A DNA stretch of 64,000 nt from Minwuia sp. (lineage in GTDB: Bacteria; Pseudomonadota; Alphaproteobacteria; Minwuiales; Minwuiaceae), in contig JARGPL010000043.1 in NCBI GenBank assembly GCA_029210175.1, positions 62,001 to 126,000 on the forward strand, given 5' to 3'. A program made the translations under genes and the position numbers. A model generated the notes under the pieces. The model was not told the origin of the DNA. It saw only the letters and a list, made by a program, of their open reading frames with translations, and did not search any database. Shown here piece by piece: positions 2,773 through 16,322 of this stretch; position 1 is the stretch's first letter, and every line of letters starts with the position of its first letter.

Positions 2773-2856
2773 CCTGCCGCGCTCCGTATGTTTCGAATCA
2801 AGCTGTACTCGGGGCCGGTTTACACCGTTCAATGGCTGACGCAAACTCACCGAATC

Positions 2857-4272
2857 ATGACCGAGTACCATCGCTGGACCGCGACAGAAGCCGTCAATCG
2901 CCTGCGGACGGGCGATGTGACCCCCCTTGAGCTGATCGACGCTGCGGCGGAACGCATCGCGGTGGTGGAGCCTGCGGTGAACGCGTTGCCGACCCTTTGC
3001 CTCGATCGCGCGCGGGACCGCGCGCGCAATCTGCAGCGTCCCGCCACCGCCGATGCCGGACACCTTTACGGCCTGCCGATCGCCATCAAGGATCTGACCA
3101 ATGTGGCCGGTGTGCGGACCACATTCGGGTCAAGTCTCTTCGCCGATCATGTCTCCGATGCCAGCGATCTGATGGTGGAACGGCTGGAGCGTCGGGGCGC
3201 GTCGGTCGTCGCCAAGTCGAACACACCGGAATTCGGTGCCGGAGCCCAGACCTTCAACGACGTCTTTGGCGTCACGCGCAACCCCTGGAACACGGAACTG
3301 ACACCCGGCGGGTCATCGGGTGGCTCCGCCGTTGCAGTGGCGACGGGGGAGGTCTGGCTGGCGCAGGGCAGTGATCTTGGCGGTTCGCTTCGCATTCCGG
3401 CGGCATTCGCCGGATGTGTCGGTCTGCGCCCCAGTCCCGGGCGGGTGCCCCATGGCCCATCGAAGCTGCCGTTCATGGTCAATTCGGTCGAAGGACCCAT
3501 GGCGCGAACGGTGCAGGATATCGCCCTTTTCCTCGATGCGATGTGCGGCATGCATGACGAAGACCCCATTTCCCTGCCTGCGCCGGTCCGGAGCTTTCAG
3601 CATGCCGTGGCGCAGGGGCGGCCACCAAAGAAGATCGCGTTTTCCATGGATCTGGGGATCACGCCCATTCACCGGGACGTGCGTGCCGGCACCGAGGCGG
3701 CCCTGAAATGCTTTGCGGACATGGGCACGGAAGTTGTTCCGCTGGATATGGAATTTGGCGATGCAGAGCCCATCTTCCAGGTGTTGCGCGCGGCCCAGTT
3801 CGCGGCGGCACATGGTGAAACGCTGGCCCTGCACCGCGAGAAGCTGAAACCGGAGGTGGTCTGGAACATTGAGAAGGGCATGGCATTGACGGCGGATGAC
3901 ATCGGTCGTGCGGAGCGGGCACGCGCGGATATCTACCACCGGTTCGTGCGCCAGTTCGATGACGTGGATCTGGTGGTGACGCCGACCGTGAACACACCGC
4001 CGTTTCATGCCGATACGCGATATCTGGAGGAACTGGATGGGCAGCCATTCGAGAGTTACATCAGCTGGCTGGCCATGACGTTTGCCCTGACGCTGACCAC
4101 CTGTCCGGCAATATCCGTGCCCGGCGGCTTTACCCCGGATGGGTTGCCGCTGGGTCTGCAACTGGTGTCGCGTCCGCGGGATGAGGCATCTCTGCTTGGT
4201 ATGGCACGGCACTTCGAGAACGCGGCCGGTCTGCGCGACCGCCTGCCCGTTGACCCCGTAGTGAGGCACTGA
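2857..4272 (+). CDS. Amidase (amidase-signature family)
   Basis: A 471-residue amidase-signature hydrolase that should cleave a carboxamide bond; the substrate is not evident. The Ser-cisSer-Lys triad is visible: K78 in AIKD, S153 in the GGSSGGS glycine-serine loop, and nucleophile S177 in DLGGSLRIP. The start is placed at the ATG beginning MTEYHRW because the family normally starts close to this helix; an in-frame ATG 69 bases upstream is possible. The stop codon overlaps the start of the EI24 gene (TGATG), so the two are probably translationally coupled. It is divergent from the PfkB kinase, leaving a short shared promoter region of about 85 bases. Confidence 0.88.
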   Translation: MTEYHRWTATEAVNRLRTGDVTPLELIDAAAERIAVVEPAVNALPTLCLDRARDRARNLQRPATADAGHLYGLPIAIKDLTNVAGVRTTFGSSLFADHVSDASDLMVERLERRGASVVAKSNTPEFGAGAQTFNDVFGVTRNPWNTELTPGGSSGGSAVAVATGEVWLAQGSDLGGSLRIPAAFAGCVGLRPSPGRVPHGPSKLPFMVNSVEGPMARTVQDIALFLDAMCGMHDEDPISLPAPVRSFQHAVAQGRPPKKIAFSMDLGITPIHRDVRAGTEAALKCFADMGTEVVPLDMEFGDAEPIFQVLRAAQFAAAHGETLALHREKLKPEVVWNIEKGMALTADDIGRAERARADIYHRFVRQFDDVDLVVTPTVNTPPFHADTRYLEELDGQPFESYISWLAMTFALTLTTCPAISVPGGFTPDGLPLGLQLVSRPRDEASLLGMARHFENAAGLRDRLPVDPVVRH

Positions 4273-5021
4273 TGATCGGAACCATCATTTCCGGCGCCCT
4301 GAAAGGCTTCAGCCAGATTCTATCTGACCCGAAGCTGCGCCGTATCTTCTGGCGCACCCTTGCCCTCGCTGCCGTGGCCTATCTCATCGCCGGGGGCGTG
4401 GCCTGGTTCGTCATCGACTATTTCCTGACCTTTGATGTCTCCTGGTTGCCGGACAGCATCGTTGGCTGGGTACGCGGCTTGCTGGAGGCAAGTGTGCTGC
4501 TCGGTGTGATCGGCTTGATGTGGGCAATCTTCCCCGCAGTCTTCACGGGCCTTTCATCGATCTTTCTGGATGAAGCAGCGGCGGCGGTGGAAGTCAGGCA
4601 TTATCCGCAGCACAAGCCCGGCGTCGAACCGGCGTTCTGGCCATCCATGCGGCGTACCCTGCAGTTCACTCTGCTGGTCGTGATCATCAACATCCTGCTG
4701 CTGCCGCTGTATCTGCTGGGTCTGTTCATCCCGCCGCTGAATCTGCTGCTCTACTACGGCGTGAACGGATATTTTCTGGGTCGCGAGTATTTCGAACTCG
4801 TCGGATATCGCCATCTTGACGAGGGCACGGTCTTCACGGCCCGCCGCCGCAACAGCACGGTTGCGCACCTGGCGGGGGCTGCAATCGCATTGGCGCTCAC
4901 AATTCCGATTCTCAACCTGTTCGTGCCTGTAGCGGCTGCTGCAATGATGGTGCATGTTTACAAGGAACTTGATCGACGTGGCCGAATCGTCGGCCCGATG
5001 ACAGGCATGCCAAAGGTCTGA
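4272..5021 (+). CDS. EI24 / CysZ-like integral membrane protein
   Basis: A 249-residue membrane protein with about four to five hydrophobic segments (near residues 28-52, 71-98, 130-165 and 200-228) and a YFLGREYFELVGYRH-type cytoplasmic loop typical of the EI24 domain. The family includes CysZ, a sulfate permease, but many alphaproteobacterial members have no proven substrate. It overlaps the amidase stop by one base and its own stop overlaps the bactofilin start by one base, so the three genes form a tight unit. Transport of sulfate is therefore only one possibility. Confidence 0.8.
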   Translation: MIGTIISGALKGFSQILSDPKLRRIFWRTLALAAVAYLIAGGVAWFVIDYFLTFDVSWLPDSIVGWVRGLLEASVLLGVIGLMWAIFPAVFTGLSSIFLDEAAAAVEVRHYPQHKPGVEPAFWPSMRRTLQFTLLVVIINILLLPLYLLGLFIPPLNLLLYYGVNGYFLGREYFELVGYRHLDEGTVFTARRRNSTVAHLAGAAIALALTIPILNLFVPVAAAAMMVHVYKELDRRGRIVGPMTGMPKV

Positions 5022-5563
5022 TGACGGAGAGTAGCGTGTTCAGAAACCGGAACGAGACCTCGGGTGATGGGGGCGACAATGGCACCGACAAGGGATTGCC
5101 GAGACGCGAGGATGCAGGTGGTGGATTCCGTGCCGACCACCGCACCGGTGCCGCCCGGCCCGTACCCAGTTCCTTCACGGCGCTTAATCAGGAGCATGAC
5201 AAGGTGAACGCTGAACCCAAGACGCTGATCGTCGGGCGGGAAATCCGCATGAAGGGGGAGATCGGGAACTGCGAGCATGTGCTGATCCATGGCTTTGCGG
5301 AGGCCGCGCTTTCCGATTGTCGTGCCTTTGAAGTCTCGCAGAGCGGCACGCTGAACGGCAGTGCCGAGGTGCAGTCTGCAGATGTCAGTGGCCGCTTCGA
5401 TGGCACCCTGAAGGTGCGTGGTCGGCTGATCATCCGGGCCGGCGGTCGGGTGAGTGGTGACATTGCATACGCCGAGATCGAGATCGAACCCGGTGGGCGC
5501 CTTGATGGTCAGATCCAGTCCATCGAGCCGCAGCTGGTCACGAACAAGCGCGCAATCGGTTGA
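5021..5563 (+). CDS. Bactofilin, polymer-forming cytoskeletal protein
   Basis: A 180-residue protein with a disordered, charged N-terminus (about 1-65) followed by a DUF583 beta-helix (about 66-160) of repeating short strands with regularly spaced glycines (TLIVGREI, GEIGNCEHVLIHG, GTLNGSAEV, GRFDGTLKV, GRVSGDI). Bactofilins polymerise without nucleotide and scaffold cell-shape or envelope proteins at the membrane. The ATG overlaps the TGA of the EI24 gene. A link to the membrane protein or lipoprotein next door is plausible from the gene order but not shown. Confidence 0.88.
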   Translation: MTESSVFRNRNETSGDGGDNGTDKGLPRREDAGGGFRADHRTGAARPVPSSFTALNQEHDKVNAEPKTLIVGREIRMKGEIGNCEHVLIHGFAEAALSDCRAFEVSQSGTLNGSAEVQSADVSGRFDGTLKVRGRLIIRAGGRVSGDIAYAEIEIEPGGRLDGQIQSIEPQLVTNKRAIG

Positions 5564-5582
5564 TTCCACAGGTGAGTTCGCG

Positions 5583-5996
5583 ATGATCCGTTACCTCGCA
5601 CCCGTCCTGATTCCCTTCGTTCTGGCCGCCTGTGCCGGGATGGGCAGTGACGCAACAGCGCCCGGTGGTGCAGGCCAGACTGCCACGGTTGATGCTGGCC
5701 CGGGTGACCGGCGCACGGAGCGGTCGGTTGCTGCGGCGGGATCGTTCGTGCCAGATCGTCATGCGGAGGAGTTCATCGGCAGCAGCCGACGTGATCTGGT
5801 GGCCTGGCTGGGGCAGCCGGACCTTGAACTGCGCGAAGGTGAGCGCAGTCTGCTGCAGTTCCGTCAGGGCAGATGCGTCGTGCTTGTGATGGTCGAGGCT
5901 GGGGATGGTGTCGCTGCGGTGGAGATGTCCGGTATCGACGGGGGAACTGACACGCGCTGTGCAGATTCGACCCTGCCAAAGGTGATGACGCAGTAG
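5583..5996 (+). CDS. Small outer-membrane-type lipoprotein
   Basis: A 137-residue protein with a lipoprotein signal peptide: MIRYL, a hydrophobic stretch and a LAAC lipobox with the acylated cysteine at residue 16. The mature part contains LVAWLGQPDLELREG and LLQFRQGRCVVLV, a pattern seen in small SmpA/OmlA-like lipoproteins of alphaproteobacteria. The frame is open further upstream, but the ATG at 5583 is directly followed by the signal peptide. It lies 19 bases after the bactofilin stop and is probably the last gene of that operon. Function unknown. Confidence 0.8.
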   Translation: MIRYLAPVLIPFVLAACAGMGSDATAPGGAGQTATVDAGPGDRRTERSVAAAGSFVPDRHAEEFIGSSRRDLVAWLGQPDLELREGERSLLQFRQGRCVVLVMVEAGDGVAAVEMSGIDGGTDTRCADSTLPKVMTQ

Positions 5997-6150
5997 CAAA
6001 TCCACATATGCCTTATTTTTAGGCGCGACCCCTGTGATCAAAATTTATTTGCACAATATTTAGTCATCATCAGCTGTTTCGGCGTGGTGCCACTATGCCA
6101 TCACTGGCGTAACTATCTGAAATCATGAAAAAATAAAATAAATCCTGATT

Positions 6151-6565
<415 letters not shown>

Positions 6566-6584
6566 GCAAGGGGAACATTAGAGT

Positions 6585-7919
6585 ATGAATTCCGGAAAAC
6601 GAGCCCTGCTGGCCGGTATCGGTGCGGCATTGCCGCTCGGCCTGCTGGCATCGCCGGCACTCGCTGAAGTCAGCAGCGAGTCGGCCTATATCTTCAACAC
6701 CTTGTCGTTTCTCATCTGCGGCTTCCTCGTCATGTTCATGGCGGCGGGCTTTGCGATGCTGGAAAGCGGCATGGTCCGTTCCAAGAATGTCGCCACGATC
6801 TGCGTGAAGAACATCGCCCTGTTCTCCATCGCGGGCCTGATGTTCTGGTTGATCGGTTATGACCTGATGTACGGCATTGACGAAGGTGGCTACATCGGCA
6901 CCTTCTCGCTGTTCTGGGCTGCCGACGATGCTGCCGCGCTGGCCGCGACCGCTGATTTCAGCGGCGGCTATTCCGCGTCATCTGACTGGTTCTTCCAGAT
7001 GGTGTTCGTCGCCACCGCCGCGTCCATCGTGTCCGGCACGGTCGCCGAGCGCGTGAAGCTCTGGCCGTTCCTGATCTTCGTGGCCGTACTGACCGCTGTC
7101 ATCTACCCGATCCAGGGTTCCTGGGAATGGGGTGCGGGCTGGCTCGACGCCGAGTTCGGCTTCTCCGACTTCGCCGGTTCCACGCTGGTGCATTCGACCG
7201 GTGGCTGGGCGGCCCTGATGGGTGCGCTGATCATCGGTGCACGCAAGGGCAAGTATGGCCCCGACGGTCGGGTCAACCCGATGCCGGGTTCGTCCATGCC
7301 GCTGGCGACGCTGGGTGTGTTCATCCTGTGGCTCGGCTGGTTCGGCTTCAATGGTGGCTCGCAGCTGGCTCTCGGCTCTGCCGCGGACGCCATCGCGATC
7401 TCCAACATCTTCGTCAACACGAACGTGGCTGCTGCCGGTGGTGTTGTCGCTGCGATGATCGCAAGCCAGATCATGTACAAGAAGGTTGACCTGACGATGG
7501 CCCTGAATGGTGCGATCGGTGGCCTGGTGTCGATCACTGCGGAGCCTCTGGCCCCCGGTATTGGCGCCGCCATCCTGATCGGTGCCGTTGGTGGTGTCCT
7601 GGTCGTGGTCGCTGTCCCGCTGCTCGACAAGCTGAAGATCGACGATGTCGTGGGTGCAATCCCCGCCCATCTGGTCTGCGGCATCTGGGGCACGCTGGCG
7701 GTTCCGATCACCAACTCTGACGCCAGCTTTGGCGGCCAGATCGTCGGTATCGTGGCCATTGGCCTCTTCGTCTCCATCGCAAGCGCCATCGTCTGGATGA
7801 TCCTGAAGGTCACCGTGGGCGTGCGTGCTTCGGAAGAAGACGAGGAACTGGGGCTCGACCGTTCCGAGCTCGGCATGGAGGCCTATCCCGAGTTTGGTCG
7901 CGGTTCCCAGATTGGCTGA
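6585..7919 (+). CDS. amtB: Ammonium transporter
   Basis: A 444-residue Amt/Rh channel for ammonium uptake across the inner membrane. A cleavable signal peptide (about 1-27, ending ALA-E) precedes eleven predicted helices. The twin pore histidines are present in LVHSTGGW and PAHLVCGIWG, and the family block GTVAERVKLWPF is clear. The acidic C-terminal tail (EEDEELGLD) is the usual GlnK contact region. It is cotranscribed with glnK and followed by a strong intrinsic terminator. Confidence 0.96.
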   Translation: MNSGKRALLAGIGAALPLGLLASPALAEVSSESAYIFNTLSFLICGFLVMFMAAGFAMLESGMVRSKNVATICVKNIALFSIAGLMFWLIGYDLMYGIDEGGYIGTFSLFWAADDAAALAATADFSGGYSASSDWFFQMVFVATAASIVSGTVAERVKLWPFLIFVAVLTAVIYPIQGSWEWGAGWLDAEFGFSDFAGSTLVHSTGGWAALMGALIIGARKGKYGPDGRVNPMPGSSMPLATLGVFILWLGWFGFNGGSQLALGSAADAIAISNIFVNTNVAAAGGVVAAMIASQIMYKKVDLTMALNGAIGGLVSITAEPLAPGIGAAILIGAVGGVLVVVAVPLLDKLKIDDVVGAIPAHLVCGIWGTLAVPITNSDASFGGQIVGIVAIGLFVSIASAIVWMILKVTVGVRASEEDEELGLDRSELGMEAYPEFGRGSQIG

Positions 7920-7982
7920 ACCGTAACCAACCTTGAAGACCCGCCCCTTCCTCCTCCCTCTTGGAAGGTGCGGAAGACTAGG

Positions 7983-8016
7983 AGCCCGGCAGCTTTGGCT
8001 GCCGGGCTTATTTTTT
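7983..8016 (+). terminator. Rho-independent terminator after amtB
   Basis: A perfect 11-bp stem (AGCCCGGCAGC / GCTGCCGGGCT) with a TTTG loop is followed by a run rich in T (TATTTTTT). It sits about 64 bases past the amtB stop and separates glnK-amtB from the second amt gene. Confidence 0.92.
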
Positions 8017-8131
8017 GCGCAGATGCTGATTATGACGTCATGGGTCTGGCTAAAATTTAAGCATATCTAGGTGCCGAAGATTACCCCAGTCGTAAGATGT
8101 TGAAATATATCAATCTAATTCATTTGCCTAT

Positions 8132-8148
8132 TTGGCATGCAGTTTGAT
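8132..8148 (+). promoter_or_regulatory. Candidate sigma-54 promoter of the second amt gene
   Basis: The element reads TTGGCATG, four bases, TTGAT, with the -24 GG and -12 GA ten bases apart. It shares GGCATG-N4-TTGA with the element before glnK and stands at a similar distance (67 bases) from its start codon. The GA instead of GC at -12 is the same deviation as in the first site. Confidence 0.45.
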
Positions 8149-8214
8149 CAATAGGAGGCACAACAAGGTGGGCCAGTGAAACTCACCGTTTATCTGTAGA
8201 GGGAGGAGATCGAC

Positions 8215-9438
8215 ATGGACTCGGTCCAATCAGGACTGGACGTCTTTTTCGTGCTGATGGGCGCGATCCTTGTGTTTGCGATGCACGCGGGATTTGCGTT
8301 CCTTGAAGTCGGCACCGTCCGCCACAAGAACCAGGTCAATGCGCTGGTGAAGATCCTCGTGGATTTCGCCATCTCCACGGTCGCCTACTTCTTCATCGGT
8401 TACTCGGTCGCCTATGGCGTCGATTTCCTGATGAGTGCGTCGGTACTGACCGGAGATGCCGAGAATTCGATCTTTGCCAAGTCCGGCTTCGATCTGGTGA
8501 AATTCTTCTTCCTTCTCACCTTTGCTGCAGCAATTCCCGCCATCATCTCGGGCGGCATCGCGGAACGCGCCAAGTTCTGGCCGCAGGCGTTCGCGACCGC
8601 CGTGATCGTCGGCATCGTCTACCCGTTCTACGAAGGCATGGTCTGGGGCAGCACCTTTGGCTACCAGGACTGGATCACGGAAAGCTTCGGCGCGCCATTC
8701 AACGACTTCGCCGGATCGGTTGTCGTTCATGCCGTTGGCGGCTGGATCGCACTGGCTGCCGTCATTCTGCTGGGGGTCCGCAAGGGCCGGTATCGCAAGG
8801 ATGGCTCTCCCGCTGGTATTCCACCGTCGTCCATTCCGTTCCTGGCCCTCGGCTCCTGGCTGCTCTGTATCGGCTGGTTCGGTTTCAATGTGATGAGCGC
8901 GCAATCGGTCGGCGGGATCAATGGTCTCGTGGCCATGAATTCCCTGCTCGCCATGGGCGGCGGTATCCTGGCTGCGCTGATCGTGGGGCGGAATGACCCC
9001 GGGTTCGTCCACAATGGCGCCCTGGCCGGTCTGGTCGCGGTCTGTGCCGGTTCCAACGTGATGCACCCTCTGGGGTCACTCGTCGTCGGTGGTGTCGCCG
9101 GTGTCCTGTTCGTCGTGGTCTTCCAGCTCTGTCACAATCGCTGGCGCATCGACGACGTCCTGGGTGTCTGGCCGCTGCATGGTCTTTGCGGCCTTTGGGG
9201 CGGAATCGCCTGTGGCATCTTTGGAACAGAGGCACTTGGCGGTATTGGTGGCGTGACCTTCATGTCGCAGTTGGTGGGTTCGCTGATCGGCGCGGCCTAC
9301 GCGTTGATCGCCGGTTTCGTTGTCTACGGCATCCTCAAGGTCGCGATGGGTATCCGCCTGAGCGAAGAAGAGGAATTCAACGGCGCAGATCTTTCGATCC
9401 ACAACATCAGTGCCAATCCGGATTCCGATCTGCGCTGA
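8215..9438 (+). CDS. amt: Second ammonium transporter (Amt family)
   Basis: A 407-residue Amt/Rh channel. Unlike the preceding amtB it has no cleavable signal peptide and starts with MDSVQSGLDVFF. Pore histidines are in VVVHAVGGW and PLHGLCGLWGG, and SGGIAERAKFWPQ is the family block. It is clearly divergent from amtB rather than a recent duplicate, so it may differ in affinity or in P-II control. A strong GGGAGGAG ribosome site precedes the ATG. It has its own upstream region with a sigma-54-like element and converges on the phosphoesterase. Confidence 0.95.
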   Translation: MDSVQSGLDVFFVLMGAILVFAMHAGFAFLEVGTVRHKNQVNALVKILVDFAISTVAYFFIGYSVAYGVDFLMSASVLTGDAENSIFAKSGFDLVKFFFLLTFAAAIPAIISGGIAERAKFWPQAFATAVIVGIVYPFYEGMVWGSTFGYQDWITESFGAPFNDFAGSVVVHAVGGWIALAAVILLGVRKGRYRKDGSPAGIPPSSIPFLALGSWLLCIGWFGFNVMSAQSVGGINGLVAMNSLLAMGGGILAALIVGRNDPGFVHNGALAGLVAVCAGSNVMHPLGSLVVGGVAGVLFVVVFQLCHNRWRIDDVLGVWPLHGLCGLWGGIACGIFGTEALGGIGGVTFMSQLVGSLIGAAYALIAGFVVYGILKVAMGIRLSEEEEFNGADLSIHNISANPDSDLR

Positions 9439-9458
9439 TCGGGCCGGGTGCGTTCGCC

Positions 9459-10433
9459 CTATCGCGTGGTGGAGGAGGCGTCATAGGCTTCCTCCACCAG
9501 CAAGGGGCGGAAACTGAAAGGCGGTGTCGCAGTCGGGTCGATGGTCACGATGACCGCGCCCACGTCCGGTGACCCCGGAACTTCCAGCCGCCAGAGATTG
9601 CGTACCAACCTGTCGTTCTCATCGTGCAGCGGGCGGTCCGTGCGATAGCTGTGGGTGTCGCCATGGACCAGCAGCACCGGACCACCGTAGCTTGCGGCTC
9701 CGGCTGCGAGGGCTGCCAGGGTTCGCGCAAATCCCTTGTCCGCTTTCCTGAATTCCGGGTTCGCATGAATGGCGATGACGAGCGCCGGGGCCTCGGTACG
9801 TGCGGCGGTTTCGAATGCACGCCGCAGCCACACCATGTTGGCCGCTTCCCGCATTTCATAGGATGCCTCCGGCCCGATCTTGCGCTTGCGGCCATTGCTC
9901 GACCCCACGACATGTACCGTCGCGAAGACGATGCCGCTCTCGGTCCAGATCGCATTCTCGACCATTTCAGGATACTGGCCGGCGTCTGACTGGCGTTGAT
10001 AGGTGCGGCCGTTCTGGCCAAAGCTTGTTGGTTGGGAAAAGAAGAACTGCCGCAAGCGGGCGAGCCGTTCATAGGGATCGTGGTTTCCCGCGCTGCCCCG
10101 ATGGCAGTCAGTCCATTCGTTGTCGCCGGGGGTATAGAACAGCGGCCCCCTGAAGCGGTTGAACTGCGTGCGGACCTTCAGCAACGTCATGTCGTTGCAG
10201 GGGCTGGACCCGGACTTGATGTCACCGACATGGATCGACAGGACCGGGTCGAGGGTATTGATCTCGTCGATCAACCGCTCGAACAGAAAGTCGTCGCGGG
10301 GGACCTGGTAGGGCGTATCCCCCAGCGCAGCAAAGGTAACCGGTTCGCTGGCTGCAGCGGCCAGAGGTGCCAGCAGGGCGGCACAGGCCGCCAGGTGCAG
10401 GGTAGCTGCTTTCAGCCGGGTGACGCCTGTCAT
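9459..10433 (-). CDS. Secreted calcineurin-like metallophosphoesterase
   Basis: A 324-residue exported protein: signal peptide about 1-27 (ending AAAAS) then a calcineurin-type phosphoesterase with GDTPY, HVGDIK, GDNEW in place of the usual GNHE, an IHANPE histidine and HGDTHSY. These supply the two-metal ligands; the substrate is unknown. The ATG at 10433 has an AGGAGG site, which decides it over an in-frame ATG at 10490 that overlaps the stop of the portal gene. It lies 53 bases downstream of that gene on the same strand, with a long hairpin between them. Confidence 0.8.
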   Translation of the reverse strand: MTGVTRLKAATLHLAACAALLAPLAAAASEPVTFAALGDTPYQVPRDDFLFERLIDEINTLDPVLSIHVGDIKSGSSPCNDMTLLKVRTQFNRFRGPLFYTPGDNEWTDCHRGSAGNHDPYERLARLRQFFFSQPTSFGQNGRTYQRQSDAGQYPEMVENAIWTESGIVFATVHVVGSSNGRKRKIGPEASYEMREAANMVWLRRAFETAARTEAPALVIAIHANPEFRKADKGFARTLAALAAGAASYGGPVLLVHGDTHSYRTDRPLHDENDRLVRNLWRLEVPGSPDVGAVIVTIDPTATPPFSFRPLLVEEAYDASSTTR

Positions 10434-10445
10434 GATTGCCTCCTG

Positions 10446-10486
10446 GATCGGCAGAAAGAGGTGCCTGTCCTCTTTCTGCCACCCGA
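10446..10486 (-). terminator. Long hairpin between portal gene and phosphoesterase
   Basis: A perfect 12-bp inverted repeat (GGCAGAAAGAGG at 10450-10461 and its complement at 10469-10480) encloses a 7-base loop; outer GATCG/CGATC arms extend it with a small bulge. On the minus strand it begins right at the portal stop codon and ends just before the phosphoesterase ribosome site. There is no T run after it, so it could be a terminator, an RNA-processing site or a translational control element. Confidence 0.5.
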
Positions 10487-12112
10487 TCATGACACGGGTG
10501 TGGCCATCTGCTCCAGAACCGACCGGTCAAGACCGGGTACTGCGTCCGGGGCTTCCTGTGGTTCCGTATCTGCGGCGGCCAGTCCAAGCTGCTGCAGTGC
10601 GTCGGCCGCCGCCAGATCAGGTTTCTCCGTTGCGACAAGAAACTCCGACGGAAACCCGTTCCGCTTCAGGAAATCGCGCAGGTATCCGGTGCGGTCGATG
10701 ACCTGCTCCAGAAGATCAGGGAAGGCGGTCGCGGCCTGCACGTAAGCCGCCTGTGCTGCCGTCGCGTCGGCAATTTCCTGCAGGCGGACCAATGGTGACG
10801 TGGGCTTCGGCTTGACCCTCTCCCCATCCACTTCGAACGGTGGCACGTAATAGGGGGACCCGACCATGGCCGGACTGGACAGGATCGACAGCACCCGATT
10901 GGCGAGCGGAAAGTCCAGTTCCGTCAGCAGGCGGAGCGACATCGGCAGCTCCACGGCTTCGAACTCCTGCTGTCGCACGTCGATCTCGAACGCCGTGCGC
11001 CCGGACGCGCTCGTCGGGGGCAGCCCAGGACCCATGATCGCCTCCCGAATGCTGCGCTGCAGGTTCTCCAGCACGATCTGGCTGACGTCGAAACGGCCCG
11101 GAGCGTCCAGTGGTGTCAGGCCCTGCGACCCGACCGCTTTCGGGATGATGGCACCGGGGACGAGCTGGATATTGGCGGGGTTCAACACACCGTCATCCTC
11201 TGCCTGCCAGATACCGGTCACGGCGATGGAGGCATTCTTCAGGATCAGTTCCACCACCTTGTTGGCCGTCTTGATGTCGGCAAGCGCGTTCAGCACAGGC
11301 CCCCGGCCCATCCATTCGCCGGGTGCCTTGTCGGTGCGGAACGCGATTACCGGGGATGCGGCGAACGTGCGGCGAAGCAGCATGTTCTCACCGGCGGCAC
11401 CGGGCTGTGCCGCGCACCAGACCTCATAGATCGCCGCCGCGCCTGGATCGTCGGCAAGTATGGCCTCGATGACCTGGATCTCGGTATCGGGCTGTTTTTC
11501 CGCGATACGGGCCAGATCGGCAGGCAGCCGTGCGTCAGGCCAGCGTTCCAGGATGCGCCGGGCGGGGAGGCGGAGGTCGCGAAAGATGGTCGCGAGCAAT
11601 CCGTCGCGGCCTTCCTCCGGGGTCATTTCCTGCGCCGGAATGGCTTCGAACCGCAGCGGCCTGTTCAGGGTGCCCGCATGCACCATCAGTGCACCGGTGG
11701 AGATCAGGGCGTCGCCCAGCGCCGGATCGATCTCGATATGGAAATTCGAAGCCTCGATGGCGCCGTGGAACTTCTCCCTTACTTCCCCGGCGTAGATATC
11801 GAACGCCTGCTGCGCTTCCGCATCATGCATCAGGGCTTCTGGCGCTTCGAAATCCATCCAGGACTTGAACGGGGGGAAGAGCTGTCCGTGCAGACGGGAT
11901 TTCCGCCAGTGCAGGGCCTGTACCGCCGTATTGTCGAAAATCTCCCGATCACGGCGCTGACCGGTCATCCCGGCCCGGTTCGACGCGTGGTTGGGCAGGG
12001 CGAAGGCATAGGCGTCGTCCAGCAGCTGATCCCAGGTCCGGCGGCGCTGCGCAGCCCGTGCAAACCGCTGCAGCGTCGCTGACTGATAGCCCGCGTCAGA
12101 TGTATTTTTCAT
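10487..12112 (-). CDS. Orphan phage head-tail connector (podovirus-type portal) protein
   Basis: A 541-residue protein resembling the T7 gp8-type head-to-tail connector (portal) family, normally about 530-560 residues. Recognisable parts are an N-terminal helical RRRTWDQLLDDAYAFALP segment, LHWRKSRLHGQLFPPFKSW (the family's conserved block before a Pro-x-x-x-Trp) and a long C-terminal helical region with AYVQAATAFPDLLEQVID. In a phage it forms the dodecameric DNA entry ring. Here no terminase, scaffold, capsid, tail or integrase gene is within reach on either side, and the flanking genes are cellular. The frame is intact and full length. It may be a prophage relic or a domesticated gene. Confidence 0.72.
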   Translation of the reverse strand: MKNTSDAGYQSATLQRFARAAQRRRTWDQLLDDAYAFALPNHASNRAGMTGQRRDREIFDNTAVQALHWRKSRLHGQLFPPFKSWMDFEAPEALMHDAEAQQAFDIYAGEVREKFHGAIEASNFHIEIDPALGDALISTGALMVHAGTLNRPLRFEAIPAQEMTPEEGRDGLLATIFRDLRLPARRILERWPDARLPADLARIAEKQPDTEIQVIEAILADDPGAAAIYEVWCAAQPGAAGENMLLRRTFAASPVIAFRTDKAPGEWMGRGPVLNALADIKTANKVVELILKNASIAVTGIWQAEDDGVLNPANIQLVPGAIIPKAVGSQGLTPLDAPGRFDVSQIVLENLQRSIREAIMGPGLPPTSASGRTAFEIDVRQQEFEAVELPMSLRLLTELDFPLANRVLSILSSPAMVGSPYYVPPFEVDGERVKPKPTSPLVRLQEIADATAAQAAYVQAATAFPDLLEQVIDRTGYLRDFLKRNGFPSEFLVATEKPDLAAADALQQLGLAAADTEPQEAPDAVPGLDRSVLEQMATPVS

Positions 12113-12121
12113 GGATACTGT

Positions 12122-12142
12122 CCCATTGGTTGTTGCAATGGG
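12122..12142. promoter_or_regulatory. Inverted repeat upstream of the orphan portal gene
   Basis: CCCATTG and CAATGGG form a perfect 7-bp inverted repeat around a 7-base centre, ending about ten bases before the portal ATG. It could be a repressor operator or an mRNA hairpin that hides the weak ribosome site. Role inferred from position only. Confidence 0.35.
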
Positions 12143-12270
12143 GTGACGATAGGCGCCGAATTCGAAATGAGTGCGCCACCAACTGTCGGCTTTCCGCTCG
12201 CGGCACTCGACCTGTCCCCCGACGTCGCTAGACTGCGGGCAATGGCTTCAGGACTACGGGGGATCGACTG

Positions 12271-13452
12271 ATGGGCTTGATCGATGATGTTCGCAAGCAG
12301 TTGCACGGGGACATGACGGACTGGCGACGCGACATTCACAAGCATCCCGAGACGGCATTCGAGGAACATCGGACCGCTGACAAGGTTGCGGAACTGCTGG
12401 AATCCTTCGGGATGGAGGTCGATCGCGGTCTGGCCAAGACCGGCGTTGTCGGCACGCTGCGCGCCGGAACCGGCAATCGCGCCATCGGCCTGCGCGCGGA
12501 CATGGATGCCCTGGATCTGACGGAACTCAACAACTTCGACCACAAGAGCGTGCACGACGGGAAGATGCATGCCTGCGGTCATGACGGGCACACCACCATG
12601 CTGTTGGGGGCCGCCCGCTATCTGGCCGAGAACCCGAACTTCGACGGTATCGTGCAGTTCATCTTCCAGCCGGCGGAGGAGAATCTCGCCGGTGGCCGCG
12701 TGATGGTGCAGGAAGGGTTGTTCGAGAAATTTCCCGTGGAACAGGTCTACGGCATGCACAACTGGCCCGGGCTGCCGGTGGGCAGCTTCGCCGTCTGCAC
12801 CGGTCCGATGATGGCTTCGGCTGACTTCTTCGAGCTGACGCTGACCGGGCGGGGCGGGCACGGGGCGTTCCCGCATCTGGCCAAGGACCCGATTGTAGCG
12901 GCTGCCCACGTCATCACCGCCTGGCAGACCATTGTCAGCCGTGATGCGGATCCGATGAAAGCCGCAGTCATCAGCGCCTGTGAGATCAATTCGGGCTTTA
13001 CCGGCAATGTCATCCCGGAAACCGCCGTGATCCGGGGCACCACCCGCACGTTCAACGAAGGCGTGCAGGACATGATCGAAGAACGCATGCGCACGGTGGC
13101 GAACGGCATTGCCCAGGCGTTCGACATGCAGGCACATTTTACCTACGACCGGCGGTATGCGCCCACCGTGAACACGCCGGATGAGACCGGCTACGCCGTT
13201 GCGGCCGCCCGCGCGATCGTGGGCGAGGACAATGTCGACACCAAGCTGGTGCCGGTCATGGGGGCGGAGGACTTCGGCTGGATGCTGCGGGAACGCCCGG
13301 GCTGTTACATGTTCGTCGGCAATGGTGAAGGCCAGGCAGGCGGGTGCGAAGTGCACAATCCCAAGTATGACTTCAACGACGAAACCTTGCCGGTCGGCGC
13401 AGCCTACTGGGTGAAGCTTGTCGAGATGCAGCTTCCCGTAGCCGGGGAGTGA
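12271..13452 (+). CDS. M20-family amidohydrolase (hippurate hydrolase-like)
   Basis: A 393-residue M20D metallopeptidase that should hydrolyse N-acyl amino acids or similar amides in the cytoplasm. Metal and catalytic residues are visible: HACGHDGH (C102, H104, D105, H107), PAEE (E136/E137), the HNWPG histidine and a C-terminal VMGAEDFGWM. The dimerisation domain lies between about 185 and 295. A longer open frame on the opposite strand covers the same DNA but is only a codon-bias shadow. It is transcribed alone, divergent from the portal gene. Confidence 0.93.
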   Translation: MGLIDDVRKQLHGDMTDWRRDIHKHPETAFEEHRTADKVAELLESFGMEVDRGLAKTGVVGTLRAGTGNRAIGLRADMDALDLTELNNFDHKSVHDGKMHACGHDGHTTMLLGAARYLAENPNFDGIVQFIFQPAEENLAGGRVMVQEGLFEKFPVEQVYGMHNWPGLPVGSFAVCTGPMMASADFFELTLTGRGGHGAFPHLAKDPIVAAAHVITAWQTIVSRDADPMKAAVISACEINSGFTGNVIPETAVIRGTTRTFNEGVQDMIEERMRTVANGIAQAFDMQAHFTYDRRYAPTVNTPDETGYAVAAARAIVGEDNVDTKLVPVMGAEDFGWMLRERPGCYMFVGNGEGQAGGCEVHNPKYDFNDETLPVGAAYWVKLVEMQLPVAGE

Positions 13453-13508
13453 TTAGGGTCGTTCGTGAAACACCCTTGGGTGGTACGCTTCTTGCTCGTT
13501 CATTCGAG

Positions 13509-13524
13509 TGTGAGCGGTATCACG
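13509..13524. promoter_or_regulatory. CRP-like palindrome 1 upstream of MBL-fold gene
   Basis: TGTGA-GCGGTA-TCACG matches the CRP consensus TGTGA-N6-TCACA at nine of ten defined positions. Its centre is 125 bases upstream of the GTG start at 13642 and 56 bases from a second copy. Confidence 0.5.
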
Positions 13525-13564
13525 GCAATTGGTTCACGAAATGACCACTCTACCGCATCGGCAG

Positions 13565-13580
13565 TGTGAGCACGATCACA
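13565..13580. promoter_or_regulatory. CRP-like palindrome 2 upstream of MBL-fold gene
   Basis: TGTGA-GCACGA-TCACA is a perfect match to the CRP/FNR-superfamily consensus TGTGA-N6-TCACA. Its centre lies about 69 bases before the GTG start. Together with site 1 it suggests cAMP-CRP control of the MBL-fold gene. Confidence 0.6.
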
Positions 13581-13641
13581 GCGGCAGGTGCACAACGCGA
13601 CTCGATGATGATCCAGAAATGAAACAGGCGGGGGCCAACAA

Positions 13642-14469
13642 GTGAGTTTCAAGGTCAAATTCTGGGGTGTGAGAGGCAGTATTGCGACTCCGGGCCCGCG
13701 CTATGTGGCTTTTGGTGGCAACACCAGCTGCATCGAGGTGTCCTGTGGCGGACAGCGTCTGATCTTTGACGCTGGCACCGGTATCAGGAACCTCGGTCAC
13801 TGGCTGATGAAGAAGAATGTGCACAACGCGCATCTTATGCTGTCCCATACCCATTGGGACCATATCAATGGCTTCCCGTTCTTTTCGCCTGCGTTCAAGA
13901 AGGACCACCATTTCACGATCATGGCGGGTCACCTGGCGGAGGAAACCGGCGGTATCCGCGAAGTGCTGGCCTCGCAGATGAACCAGCCCACATTCCCTGT
14001 GCCCATCGACATCATGCAGGCGCAGCTGAGTTTCGAGGATTTCAAGGCTGGTGACGTGCTGAACCTCGGCCCGGATGTTCGCGTCACCACCACGCCATTG
14101 AACCACCCGGACGGTGCAACCGGCTATCGCGTCGACCATGCCGGCCACGCATTCTGCTACGTCACGGACACCGAACACGTCCCGGGCAAGCCCGATGAGA
14201 AGATCCTGGCCCTGATCGAAGGGGCTGATGTCGTGGTCTATGACTGCACCTACAACGACAAGGAATTCGCTTCCAAGGTCGGGTGGGGTCATTCGACCTG
14301 GCAGGAAGGCATGCGCCTCTGTCAGGCCGCAAACGTGCGCCAGCACGTCATCTTCCACCACGACCCGGACCATGAAGACGTCTACATGGAACGGCTGGAG
14401 GAAGAAGCGCGCTACGAATGGATCGGCAATACCGTCGCCCGCGAGAACATGCGGTTGCGGGTGGGGTGA
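13642..14469 (+). CDS. MBL-fold metallo-hydrolase
   Basis: A 275-residue metallo-beta-lactamase-fold enzyme. It opens with the family block FWGVRGSIATPGP and GGNTSC, and carries the zinc motif HTHWDH (69-74), a later histidine in NHPDGATGYR, an aspartate in YVTDTEH and a C-terminal HHDPDHED. This subfamily resembles RNase Z/PhnP-type phosphodiesterases; the substrate is not known. Translation starts at GTG, as no ATG fits the conserved N-terminus. The upstream region contains two CRP-type palindromes. It converges on the HD-domain gene. Confidence 0.85.
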   Translation: MSFKVKFWGVRGSIATPGPRYVAFGGNTSCIEVSCGGQRLIFDAGTGIRNLGHWLMKKNVHNAHLMLSHTHWDHINGFPFFSPAFKKDHHFTIMAGHLAEETGGIREVLASQMNQPTFPVPIDIMQAQLSFEDFKAGDVLNLGPDVRVTTTPLNHPDGATGYRVDHAGHAFCYVTDTEHVPGKPDEKILALIEGADVVVYDCTYNDKEFASKVGWGHSTWQEGMRLCQAANVRQHVIFHHDPDHEDVYMERLEEEARYEWIGNTVARENMRLRVG

Positions 14470-14476
14470 GGCGGTT

Positions 14477-15064
14477 CTAAGCCACTTCCTGCGCGGCGTC
14501 GGCCATGTAGATCGACTGCTTCGGTGTCTCGAACACGCGCTGCACCATCGGGCGGAAATCGTCCAGTTTCATGGAGTCATAGGCCGGGTCGAATGCGGGC
14601 GCGTCGTAGCGTTCGCAGAAGATCGCCGTCCGTTCGAAATCCGGGTGACCGCGGAACTGTTCGCGCATGTCGCGGTCCAGCCCCAGGTGGTGGAAGAAGT
14701 AATAGCCCTGGAAGATGCCATGTTGCGCGACCATCCAGTGGTTTGACTCTGACACGAACGGCTTCAGCACCGTCGCGGCCATGTCGGCATGATTGTAGGA
14801 ACACAGCAGGTCGCCGATGTCGTGCAGCAGGGCGGCCACGACATATTCCTCATCCTCCCCCGCCTTGCGCGCGCGGGTCGCGGTCTGCAGGCTGTGTTCC
14901 AGCCGATCCACCTGAAACCCGCCATAGTCGCCCCCCAGCATCTGCAGATGCGCCAGCAGGCGATCCGCCAGACCGGCGCTGAACGGCTTGTATTCCGCGC
15001 CGATGATCTTCCAGTCCTGAGCCGTGCTGTCTGCCATATCCGTGAAGCGCGCGCTATCTGCCAT
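14477..15064 (-). CDS. HD-domain protein, PhnZ-like diiron oxygenase family
   Basis: A 195-residue HD-domain protein with LEHSLQ (H57), LLHDIGD (H81, D82) and a downstream histidine and aspartate, enough for a dinuclear iron site. From memory of PhnZ, the marine enzyme that oxidatively cleaves 2-amino-1-hydroxyethylphosphonate, the block DY-x-G-x5-LEHSLQ matches (Tyr47), as do the C-terminal DF and later segments. The PhnZ glutamate three residues after that tyrosine is Phe50 here, so the substrate may differ. No PhnY-type hydroxylase or phosphonate transporter is nearby. A GGGGACAG site precedes the ATG. Confidence 0.72.
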   Translation of the reverse strand: MADSARFTDMADSTAQDWKIIGAEYKPFSAGLADRLLAHLQMLGGDYGGFQVDRLEHSLQTATRARKAGEDEEYVVAALLHDIGDLLCSYNHADMAATVLKPFVSESNHWMVAQHGIFQGYYFFHHLGLDRDMREQFRGHPDFERTAIFCERYDAPAFDPAYDSMKLDDFRPMVQRVFETPKQSIYMADAAQEVA

Positions 15065-15185
15065 GGTCTGTCCCCTGTTGCTGCTGTGCCGTGGCGCAGA
15101 GCGGTTGCGTTGACCCGGCCCGTGGCCTCCAGTATCTCCGGTGTAGTGCCGTCAGGGCAAGATGGATCGAAGGGGAGAGCGGGCC

Positions 15186-16322
15186 ATGATCGGATTGACC
15201 GAAGACCAGATCGCGTTTCAGGACGCAGCACGCAGCTTTGCCGTGGCGGAGATGGAGCCCCATGCCGCGAAGTGGGATGAGGAAAAGATCTTCCCCGAAG
15301 ACACCCTGCGGCAGATGGCGGAGCTGGGCTTCGCCGGGATCTATGTCGACCCGGCGCATGGCGGTTCGGGCCTCAGCCGTGTCGATGCGGCCGTGATCTT
15401 CGAGGAACTGGCGGCGGGCTGCACATCGACTGCGGCCTATGTCTCGATCCACAACATGGCGACCTGGATGATCGACAGGTTCGGCGATGATGAGGTGCGC
15501 GCGAAGTTTCTGCCGAAACTCTGTTCGATGGAAAATTTCGCCAGCTATTGCCTGACGGAGGCCGGGGCCGGGTCGGATGCCGCCAGCCTGAAGACGAAGG
15601 CGGTGCGCGACGGCGACCACTATGTCCTCAACGGCGCCAAGGCCTTCATCTCCGGCGGTGGCCGGTCAGATGTCTACGTGGTTATGGCGCGGACCGGTGA
15701 CGACGGACCGAAGGGTGTTACCTGCATCGTGGTCGAAAAGGATGCGCCGGGCCTCGGCTTCGGCGCACAGGAACGCAAGATGGGCTGGAATTCCCAGCCG
15801 ACCGCCATGGTCATGTTCGATGACTGCCGCGTGCCTGTCAGCAACCGCATCGGTGATGAGGGGCAGGGGTTCAGCATCGCCATGGCTGGACTGGACGGTG
15901 GCCGCATCAACATCGGTGCCTGCTCCATCGGCGCCGCGCGCGCATCGCTGGAACGCACGATTGCCTACGTGAAGGACCGCAAGCAGTTCGGGCAGGCCAT
16001 TGCCGGTTTCCAGAACACCCAGTTCAAGCTGGCCGACATGGCGACCGATCTGGAAGCGGCCCGCATGATGATCCGCGGTGCGGCGGCGAAGCTCGACGAC
16101 GGTGCCGCGGACAAGACAGTCGCCTGTGCCATGGCCAAGCGCTTCGCCACGGATGTGGGGTTCAACGTCTGCAACGACGCGCTGCAGCTGCATGGCGGCT
16201 ACGGCTACCTCCGCGACCACCCGATCGAGCGCTACATGCGCGACTGCCGGGTGCACCAGATCCTGGAAGGCACCAACGAGATCATGCGCGTGGTCATCAG
16301 CAGGCAATTGCTGAAGGATTAG
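15186..16322 (+). CDS. Acyl-CoA dehydrogenase, isobutyryl-CoA dehydrogenase-like
   Basis: A 378-residue FAD flavoenzyme that introduces the alpha-beta double bond in a short or branched acyl-CoA. Family blocks are [11 protein letters not shown] (FAD/substrate loop), KAFISGGG, the DRKQFGQAI segment and the C-terminal [12 protein letters not shown] with the catalytic Glu in EGT. It most resembles ACAD8-type isobutyryl-CoA dehydrogenases of valine breakdown, but no valine-pathway partner is adjacent. The start is the ATG at 15186 with GGGGAGAG upstream; an in-frame start 24 bases earlier is less likely. Confidence 0.9.

Follow-up and report, generated by a model that had tools for sequence, protein, structure and literature searches.

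A T7-type portal gene among cellular genes of Minwuia and its dispersed particle-gene partners: a possible podovirus-derived gene transfer agent of Alphaproteobacteria

The portal gene and its surroundings

The stretch of DNA analysed here, called the window, comprises 64,000 nucleotides of a Minwuia sp. genome and carries, among genes of cellular type, a gene for a T7-type portal protein (Table 1). The product matches Pfam family PF12236 (Head-tail_con) over profile positions 3-489 of 489 with E 3.2e-73 and a score of 247 bits against a curated cut-off of 27, as expected of a full-length T7-type portal, and it also matches PHROG 332 (head-tail adaptor; E 7.4e-56), which confirms the identification made in the initial annotation. 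In the PDB, the single sequence found the podovirus portal 9efk (E 7e-31) and the family profile found the T7 portal (E 2.6e-23); podovirus portals were also matched there by the fold of an AlphaFold model of moderate quality. This model has a mean pLDDT of 66, with values below 50 across most of residues 292-382, which is why the assignment of blocks within the protein, described below, is based on sequence alignment. The gene is present in a single copy and is the sole match in its own genome. The nearest phage record, an unverified 5-kb faecal sequence, shares 39% identity with it, and the portal of phage MEP301 shares 33%.

Ten genes around the portal (positions 2788 to 16319) match cellular Pfam families, a metallophosphoesterase gene lies directly downstream, and the base composition of the portal gene by codon position resembles that of its neighbours. 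No tRNA was found in the window with ARAGORN. When 32 proteins from two phages with related portals were used as queries, they matched only the portal within the window and nothing in the 20 kb preceding the window. A prophage edge beside the window was considered and rejected, as the flanks are cellular. The earlier view that the portal stands alone among cellular genes is correct, in the sense that it is alone locally; no capsid or terminase locus showed up in the 20 kb before the window.

Table 1. Location of the portal gene, its neighbour and the partner genes in the same genome (C, contig)
Feature	Location	Strand	Evidence
T7-type portal (head-tail connector) gene, 541 aa	window 10487..12112	minus	PF12236, PHROG 332, genus conservation, dN/dS
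Portal stem-clip block, codons 251-350	window 11063..11362	minus	block identities, T7 profile alignment
Metallophosphoesterase gene	window 9459-10490		PF00149
Large terminase	C29:3818-5326		
Scaffold	C25:73245-73949		
Capsid	C18:10435-11253		
Nozzle	C18:7502-9493		
Fibre	from C5:2677		

Conservation of the portal in the genus

The portal frame is intact at the same locus in all seven sampled Minwuia genomes, so that chance is excluded, and the comparison of synteny found the locus kept throughout the genus. Each of the other six genomes has one portal copy, with 71-90% identity. The order of genes common to three of them (G001, G002, G003) is two ammonium transporters, phosphoesterase, portal, M20 peptidase and lactamase-fold gene; G005 shows the same genes as far as its contig end, while G004 and G006 keep the portal, the M20 peptidase and the lactamase-fold gene within one region. 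G007 and G008, which represent two further genera of this family, have no portal.

According to our own Nei-Gojobori script, the dN/dS of the portal is 0.10-0.12 in four close species pairs (dS 0.19-0.90) and 0.20 in the most distant pair, G000-G006; the M20 peptidase flanking the portal has a dS of 0.13-0.65 in the same four pairs. The values for the close pairs agree with the proposal of the initial annotation that the frame reflects selection rather than decay. The metallophosphoesterase is a fast-evolving gene (dN/dS 0.18-0.20), which adjoins the portal in six of the seven genomes and was not found at the G006 locus.

Other particle genes in Minwuia

The gene set found in all seven genomes of the genus consists of the portal, a Bbp19-like protein, scaffold, major capsid protein, a phrog_18004 protein, adaptor, nozzle, fibre and large terminase; a particle gene set of the type of a gene transfer agent (GTA), with capsid, portal, tail and terminase, is thus present in 7/7. 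These genes occupy several loci among cellular genes, and a contiguous podovirus prophage genome at one site was not found in the genus, the pieces lying at several places. With profiles from related clusters, one strong capsid match and one strong match to the nozzle (tail tube B) were obtained per genome in 7/7. Contig C18 of the genome under study carries the capsid, the nozzle, the phrog_18004 protein ("hinge"), the tail adaptor and a protein of ~131 residues. The large terminase, of phrog_2 type and carrying ATPase and nuclease motifs, occurs in all seven genomes, in G005 only as a contig-end piece, and a T7-type fibre likewise occurs in all seven. The scaffold was recognized in 7/7, where the class profile matched it weakly, at best E values of 6e-4 to 7e-3; the copy in the genome under study matches PF05396 with E 7.5e-13 and is immediately preceded by the Bbp19-like gene (PF25181), as in the class-wide cluster described below. 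Scaffold identity within the genus is 51-79%. The gene caller is crude for GC-rich DNA, and the coordinates of lone pieces were taken from search matches.

The suggestion that the portal is the last piece of a prophage is contradicted by these results, with capsid, nozzle, terminase, scaffold and fibre present elsewhere in all seven genomes. A search of the rest of the genome for a capsid and a terminase of the same phage type found the former; the terminase that it found is of another type. In the closed genome G003, the terminase, the capsid cluster and the fibre lie at 1.326-1.351 Mb with cellular genes in between, the scaffold at 2.823 Mb and the portal at 2.951 Mb; the distance of 1.6 Mb between capsid and portal again indicates that no prophage adjoins the latter. 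All particle genes fall within ~71 kb in G004 and ~70 kb in G006, interspersed with cellular genes. The terminase is located 7-15 kb from the portal (G004, G006) or from the capsid cluster (G003).

Contig ends excepted, the frames of the particle genes are open in 7/7 genomes. Their dN/dS in the four close pairs is 0.03-0.06 for the capsid and for the adaptor, 0.07-0.12 for the nozzle, 0.05-0.09 for the terminase, 0.10-0.14 for the scaffold and 0.16-0.20 for the fibre, and it is higher in the most distant pair, G000-G006 (scaffold 0.39, fibre 0.58). A holin of PF11351, a family named for gene-transfer release, is found in all seven genomes of the genus and in none of 14 controls. It adjoins a gene in five genomes that is called lysozyme-like from a reading of the sequence letters, and in G004 and G006 the holin and the fibre are 0.7 kb apart. 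As its context differs from genome to genome, its membership in the particle set is held tentative. Among the Minwuia genes identified there are no ejection (core) proteins, no small terminase and no regulator.

A related gene cluster across Alphaproteobacteria

Relatives of the capsid were found in at least 519 stretches, of which the best 80 named loci were read. In these, the genes follow one order on one strand: behind a divergent S24-type repressor and two small genes come portal, Bbp19, scaffold, capsid, hinge, adaptor, nozzle, a small protein, fibre and a phrog_38 terminase. Order was counted over the 76 non-Minwuia loci of the best 80, with those that have enough flank as denominators. 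The hinge follows the capsid in 70/70 loci, the adaptor in 61/62, the nozzle in 58/59 and the terminase in 53/58; the portal lies no more than 10 kb before the capsid in 34 of 57 and the scaffold in 35 of 57, and a divergent S24 gene precedes the portal in 25 of 31. None of these 76 loci has a core gene on the opposite strand.

From repressor to terminase, the cluster spans 9.7-19.3 kb (median 15.8, n=22). Such clusters are filed as viral contigs in IMG/VR, where 16 of the 80 best contigs measure 17.0-19.5 kb and only 4 exceed 20 kb. Inspection of four gene lists by eye and a scan of ten further proteins revealed no integrase, and within the same scope no integration or replication genes were seen with the particle genes. 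An ilvE-like aminotransferase is present in 12 of the best 80 loci, and a class I lysyl-tRNA synthetase stands beside other clusters (L162, from Pfam; L115, by eye); recurring neighbours of this kind are as for one old chromosomal site. Among the 80 best capsid loci, 29 belong to Azospirillaceae, including A. lipoferum Sp59b.

Locus L115 also carries a cell-wall hydrolase and a PF11351 holin behind its terminase. This holin matches four Minwuia loci, of G004 and G006; the hydrolase, the repressor of the class cluster and its two small genes have no match in the Minwuia loci read, and the phrog_38 terminase is not a conserved Minwuia gene (weak partial matches in 3/7 genomes). The two small genes are conserved between repressor and portal in L028, L033, L036, L037, L038 and L039, with motifs like SAEEVWFWF and WWLRFLKKGFKHCFVV, and their representatives have no significant Pfam or PHROG match. 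In an Azospirillum cluster (L120, 7255-9606), a GGDEF/EAL sensor gene is located between scaffold and capsid, and a similar-looking frame occurs in L132.

Distribution and descent with the host

The distribution of the particle genes was followed in 385 genomes of the class, a strong capsid being defined by E <=1e-64 and a strong portal by E <=1e-100, cut-offs that were picked after the lists had been viewed. At E 1e-10, 89 of the 385 genomes have a capsid match. It is strong in 59, of which 58 reach 6e-114 or better and one, a partial match, 1e-64; the 30 weak matches, with E from 7e-42 to 9e-12, look prophage-like. A strong portal accompanies the capsid in 57 of the 59 strong-capsid genomes and is found in 61 genomes overall. 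The two genes lie within 20 kb of each other in 35 of the 57 and on different contigs in 15, to which assembly breaks may contribute; in the remaining seven they share a contig at a distance of 57 kb to 1.6 Mb. These seven genomes span four family codes (f1, f52, f105, f151), so that scattering seemingly occurred more than once, with the genes retained.

Three reduced genomes of 0.9 Mb (G076, G195, G365; f69) keep a strong capsid and portal 7.8-8.3 kb apart. Broken capsid copies were found in G023 and G207. A portal gene in two open fragments, separated by 17 kb, occupies G059:C2:1262467-1280787.

The seven Minwuia sequences form one clade (SH-aLRT 100) in a capsid tree with 91 members, in which Azospirillaceae require 3 changes against a shuffled mean of 19.5. 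The phages Hodr, MEP301 and PG9A-2 fall outside the bacterial capsids on long branches. The 8 rows labelled Rhodospirillaceae, a loose title label, do not cluster, requiring 8 changes, and support is lacking at many deep branches. SucA served as a host marker; it was sought in 30 genomes and compared in 27, with G010 (no match) and G282 and G054 (pieces only) left out. Capsid and SucA distances are correlated (Mantel r 0.58, 0/10000 permutations), also without Minwuia (r 0.62, n=23, 0/10000 permutations). Of the six families with several rows, five are each set apart by a single branch in the capsid tree and in the SucA tree alike, and f52, the sixth, requires two changes in either tree. The capsid is conserved more than SucA (median -ln identity 0.37 vs 0.49), and its GC3, which ranges from 0.42 to 0.97, tracks the GC of the flanks (r 0.93, n=69). 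Judged from the sequences, co-evolution with the host and purifying selection, both looked for in a GTA, hold here, the deep branches of the capsid tree being unsupported.

Two records stand out by their position. L192 (MT838907.1, 5 kb), an unverified "Bacteriophage sp." from human faeces, is nested in the bacterial clade next to the class genome G010 in both capsid and portal trees; the phage label may conceal a copy from a gut alphaproteobacterium. The capsid of L183, from a Stygiobacter MAG of another phylum, groups tightly with Magnetospirillum, and the contig is probably misbinned.

A diverged portal and a changed packaging side in Minwuia

Median identity to the rest of the lineage is 64% for the capsid of the genome under study and only 35% for its portal; among pairs of members with less than 75% capsid identity, the portal median is 57% and the 5th percentile 50%. 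The divergence is unevenly distributed along the protein. Compared with 41 lineage portals, identity is 74% in residues 251-300 and 80% in residues 301-350; the lineage portals reach 88% and 80% with one another, and the portal under study shares 48% with three phages. In the seven remaining blocks, identity to the lineage is 17-32%, no closer than to phages, and the wing and crown have diverged beyond recognition. In the profile alignment, residues 251-350 correspond to stem helix 7 and the clip of the T7 portal, a stretch that includes D275, D278, Q307, R309, R310 and K313. In the structural description drawn on here in part, these residues contact the adaptor gp11 in T7 (PMC6702177).

Minwuia retains the adaptor of the old lineage alongside a strongly diverged scaffold and a terminase of another type. 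The terminase belongs to a common phage type, with 47% identity to several phages and at least 552 relatives in IMG/VR; its membership in the set rests on its conservation in 7/7 genomes and its proximity to the portal or the capsid cluster. Import of the portal together with this terminase was rejected: 64 of the 80 best viral contigs with a Minwuia-type terminase have a portal match, and the Minwuia portal is no closer to those phages than class-wide portals are. Minwuia portals, used as queries against IMG/VR, had no relative there. Either recombination or fast local evolution would account for the divergence of the portal blocks. Change in the wing, crown, scaffold and terminase, with the putative tail-docking part held, is what would be expected if the particle must still assemble.

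Interpretation and alternatives

Taken together, the sequences make it very probable that these are domesticated, vertically inherited podovirus-type particle genes. They suggest that the particle is retained for the bacterium's own purposes, with DNA carriage between cells as the likeliest one, and we consider it fairly probable that the portal is a dispersed part of a domesticated T7-type particle acting as a GTA. DNA transfer is what we infer; this role is favoured by analogy and because terminase, adaptor, nozzle and fibre have been kept. Of the earlier idea of a scattered GTA-like set, the scatter has thus been borne out, with partners elsewhere in 7/7 genomes, and the function is the part that goes beyond observation.

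In the proposed mechanism, the particle parts would still assemble, with the portal ring and the scaffold initiating the capsid and the terminase loading it with host DNA, since genes so distant from one another could not be packaged jointly as a phage genome. Adaptor, nozzle and fibre would then close the filled capsid, some cells would lyse, and the particle would inject its DNA into relatives as a podovirus-type GTA. In Minwuia, the packaging side would be an altered one, with a terminase of another phage type, a scaffold that has strongly diverged and a portal in which only the stem-clip block of the old lineage survives. On a broader proposal our judgement is evenly balanced: that a class-wide alphaproteobacterial GTA of podovirus origin, independent of RcGTA and BaGTA and older than many families, is still made and is the source of the 10-kb particles of Azospirillum, its genes having been scattered in Minwuia and its packaging side exchanged piecewise along protein interfaces.

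The same domesticated particle might have a role other than gene transfer, either as a killing or lysis particle, such as PBSX, or with some other cargo. Descent, selection and scatter would look alike in that case, and the evidence for domestication applies to it equally; however, all seven genomes retain a large terminase that has ATPase and nuclease motifs, so DNA is probably packaged, and the adaptor, nozzle and fibre, also kept, are parts for delivery. We regard such a role as unlikely. Still less probable are recurrent temperate podoviruses bound to host lineages and to one preferred integration site, that is, active prophages that appear vertical. The S24-type repressor beside the cluster, the listing of clusters as viral contigs in IMG/VR, the existence of related isolated phages and the prophage-like capsid matches in 30 of 385 genomes would fit them. 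Against them stand the short repressor-to-terminase span, the failure to see an integrase in the lists and proteins inspected, the scarcity of contigs above 20 kb among the 80 best, a GC3 matched to the host, capsid distances that follow SucA, and genes scattered along the chromosome in Minwuia and other families.

That the portal, the capsid and the other pieces are independent prophage remnants in decay is very improbable. Scattered pieces and the broken copies in other genera are what decay would leave, but the pieces are open in all seven Minwuia genomes (contig ends excepted) with dN/dS of 0.03-0.20 in close pairs, and capsid and portal occur together in nearly all strong-capsid genomes. 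The least probable reading is that the portal alone was recruited for a cellular job at its locus, a possibility raised at the outset. It would suit the unrecognizable wing and crown and the recurrent metallophosphoesterase neighbour; yet the expected partners are conserved in the same seven genomes, and the block that has been held is the one that contacts the adaptor in T7.

If the preferred reading of a domesticated particle used for gene transfer is true, another large GTA family has gone unnoticed, or been catalogued as prophages, throughout a major class of bacteria that includes Azospirillum and Magnetospirillum, and short-tailed particles join the GTAs of Alphaproteobacteria. It also offers a testable source for the 10-kb particles of Azospirillum. 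The Minwuia loci would represent a virus particle dismantled along the chromosome and nevertheless kept, and the portal would indicate which part must stay while the rest changes.

Comparison with known systems

RcGTA is siphovirus-like and has an HK97-type capsid. The genes described here resemble RcGTA and its kin (Rhodogtaviriformidae) as phage-derived particle genes that are inherited vertically and lie at several loci; they differ in that the capsid matches only PF19821, and not the HK97 type of the RcGTA family, and in that the portal, fibre and scaffold are T7-type. A search of the PDB with the capsid profile found the capsid of LME-1 (9eg4) and no RcGTA chain. According to the passages of PMC9662315 used here, RcGTA genes are spread over five loci in R. 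capsulatus. The same passages describe BaGTA of Bartonella as having an HK97-type capsid and occupying one region of ~79 kb, with reported particles that include short-tailed or tailless ones, and give for Bartogtaviriformidae an HK97-type capsid together with a TerL within the BaGTA clade. Compared by this description, BaGTA is similar as an alphaproteobacterial GTA with short-tailed or tailless particles; the capsid here matches only PF19821. FpGTA of Faecalibacterium, a GTA-like element in two operons, is thought to be podovirus-like in the excerpt of PMC12946183 consulted; as described there, it shares this likeness but belongs to a Gram-positive gut host. No description of an alphaproteobacterial T7-type particle set was found in the open-licence literature.

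The T7-like podoviruses Pelagibacter phage Hodr, Methylophilales phage MEP301 and LME-1 have homologues of the portal, capsid and tail proteins. The major capsid protein of the genome under study is 46% identical to that of Hodr and 29% to that of MEP301, and LME-1 supplies the best solved relatives, with its portal-tail complex (9efk) and its capsid (9eg4). Unlike the cluster, these podoviruses are complete phages on long outer branches.

Particles with ~10 kb of random host DNA have been described for A. lipoferum and B510 (PMC3899980, citing Boyer 2008). In the portions of that article available to us, they are assigned to prophage regions with an RcGTA-like order of terminase, portal, protease and capsid, and a lone lysozyme is given as the only phage-related gene of the Azospirillum core (PMC3899980). 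The lysozyme could be another scattered member of the particle set. We hypothesize that the 10-kb particles of Azospirillum are linked to the T7-type cluster found in these genomes.
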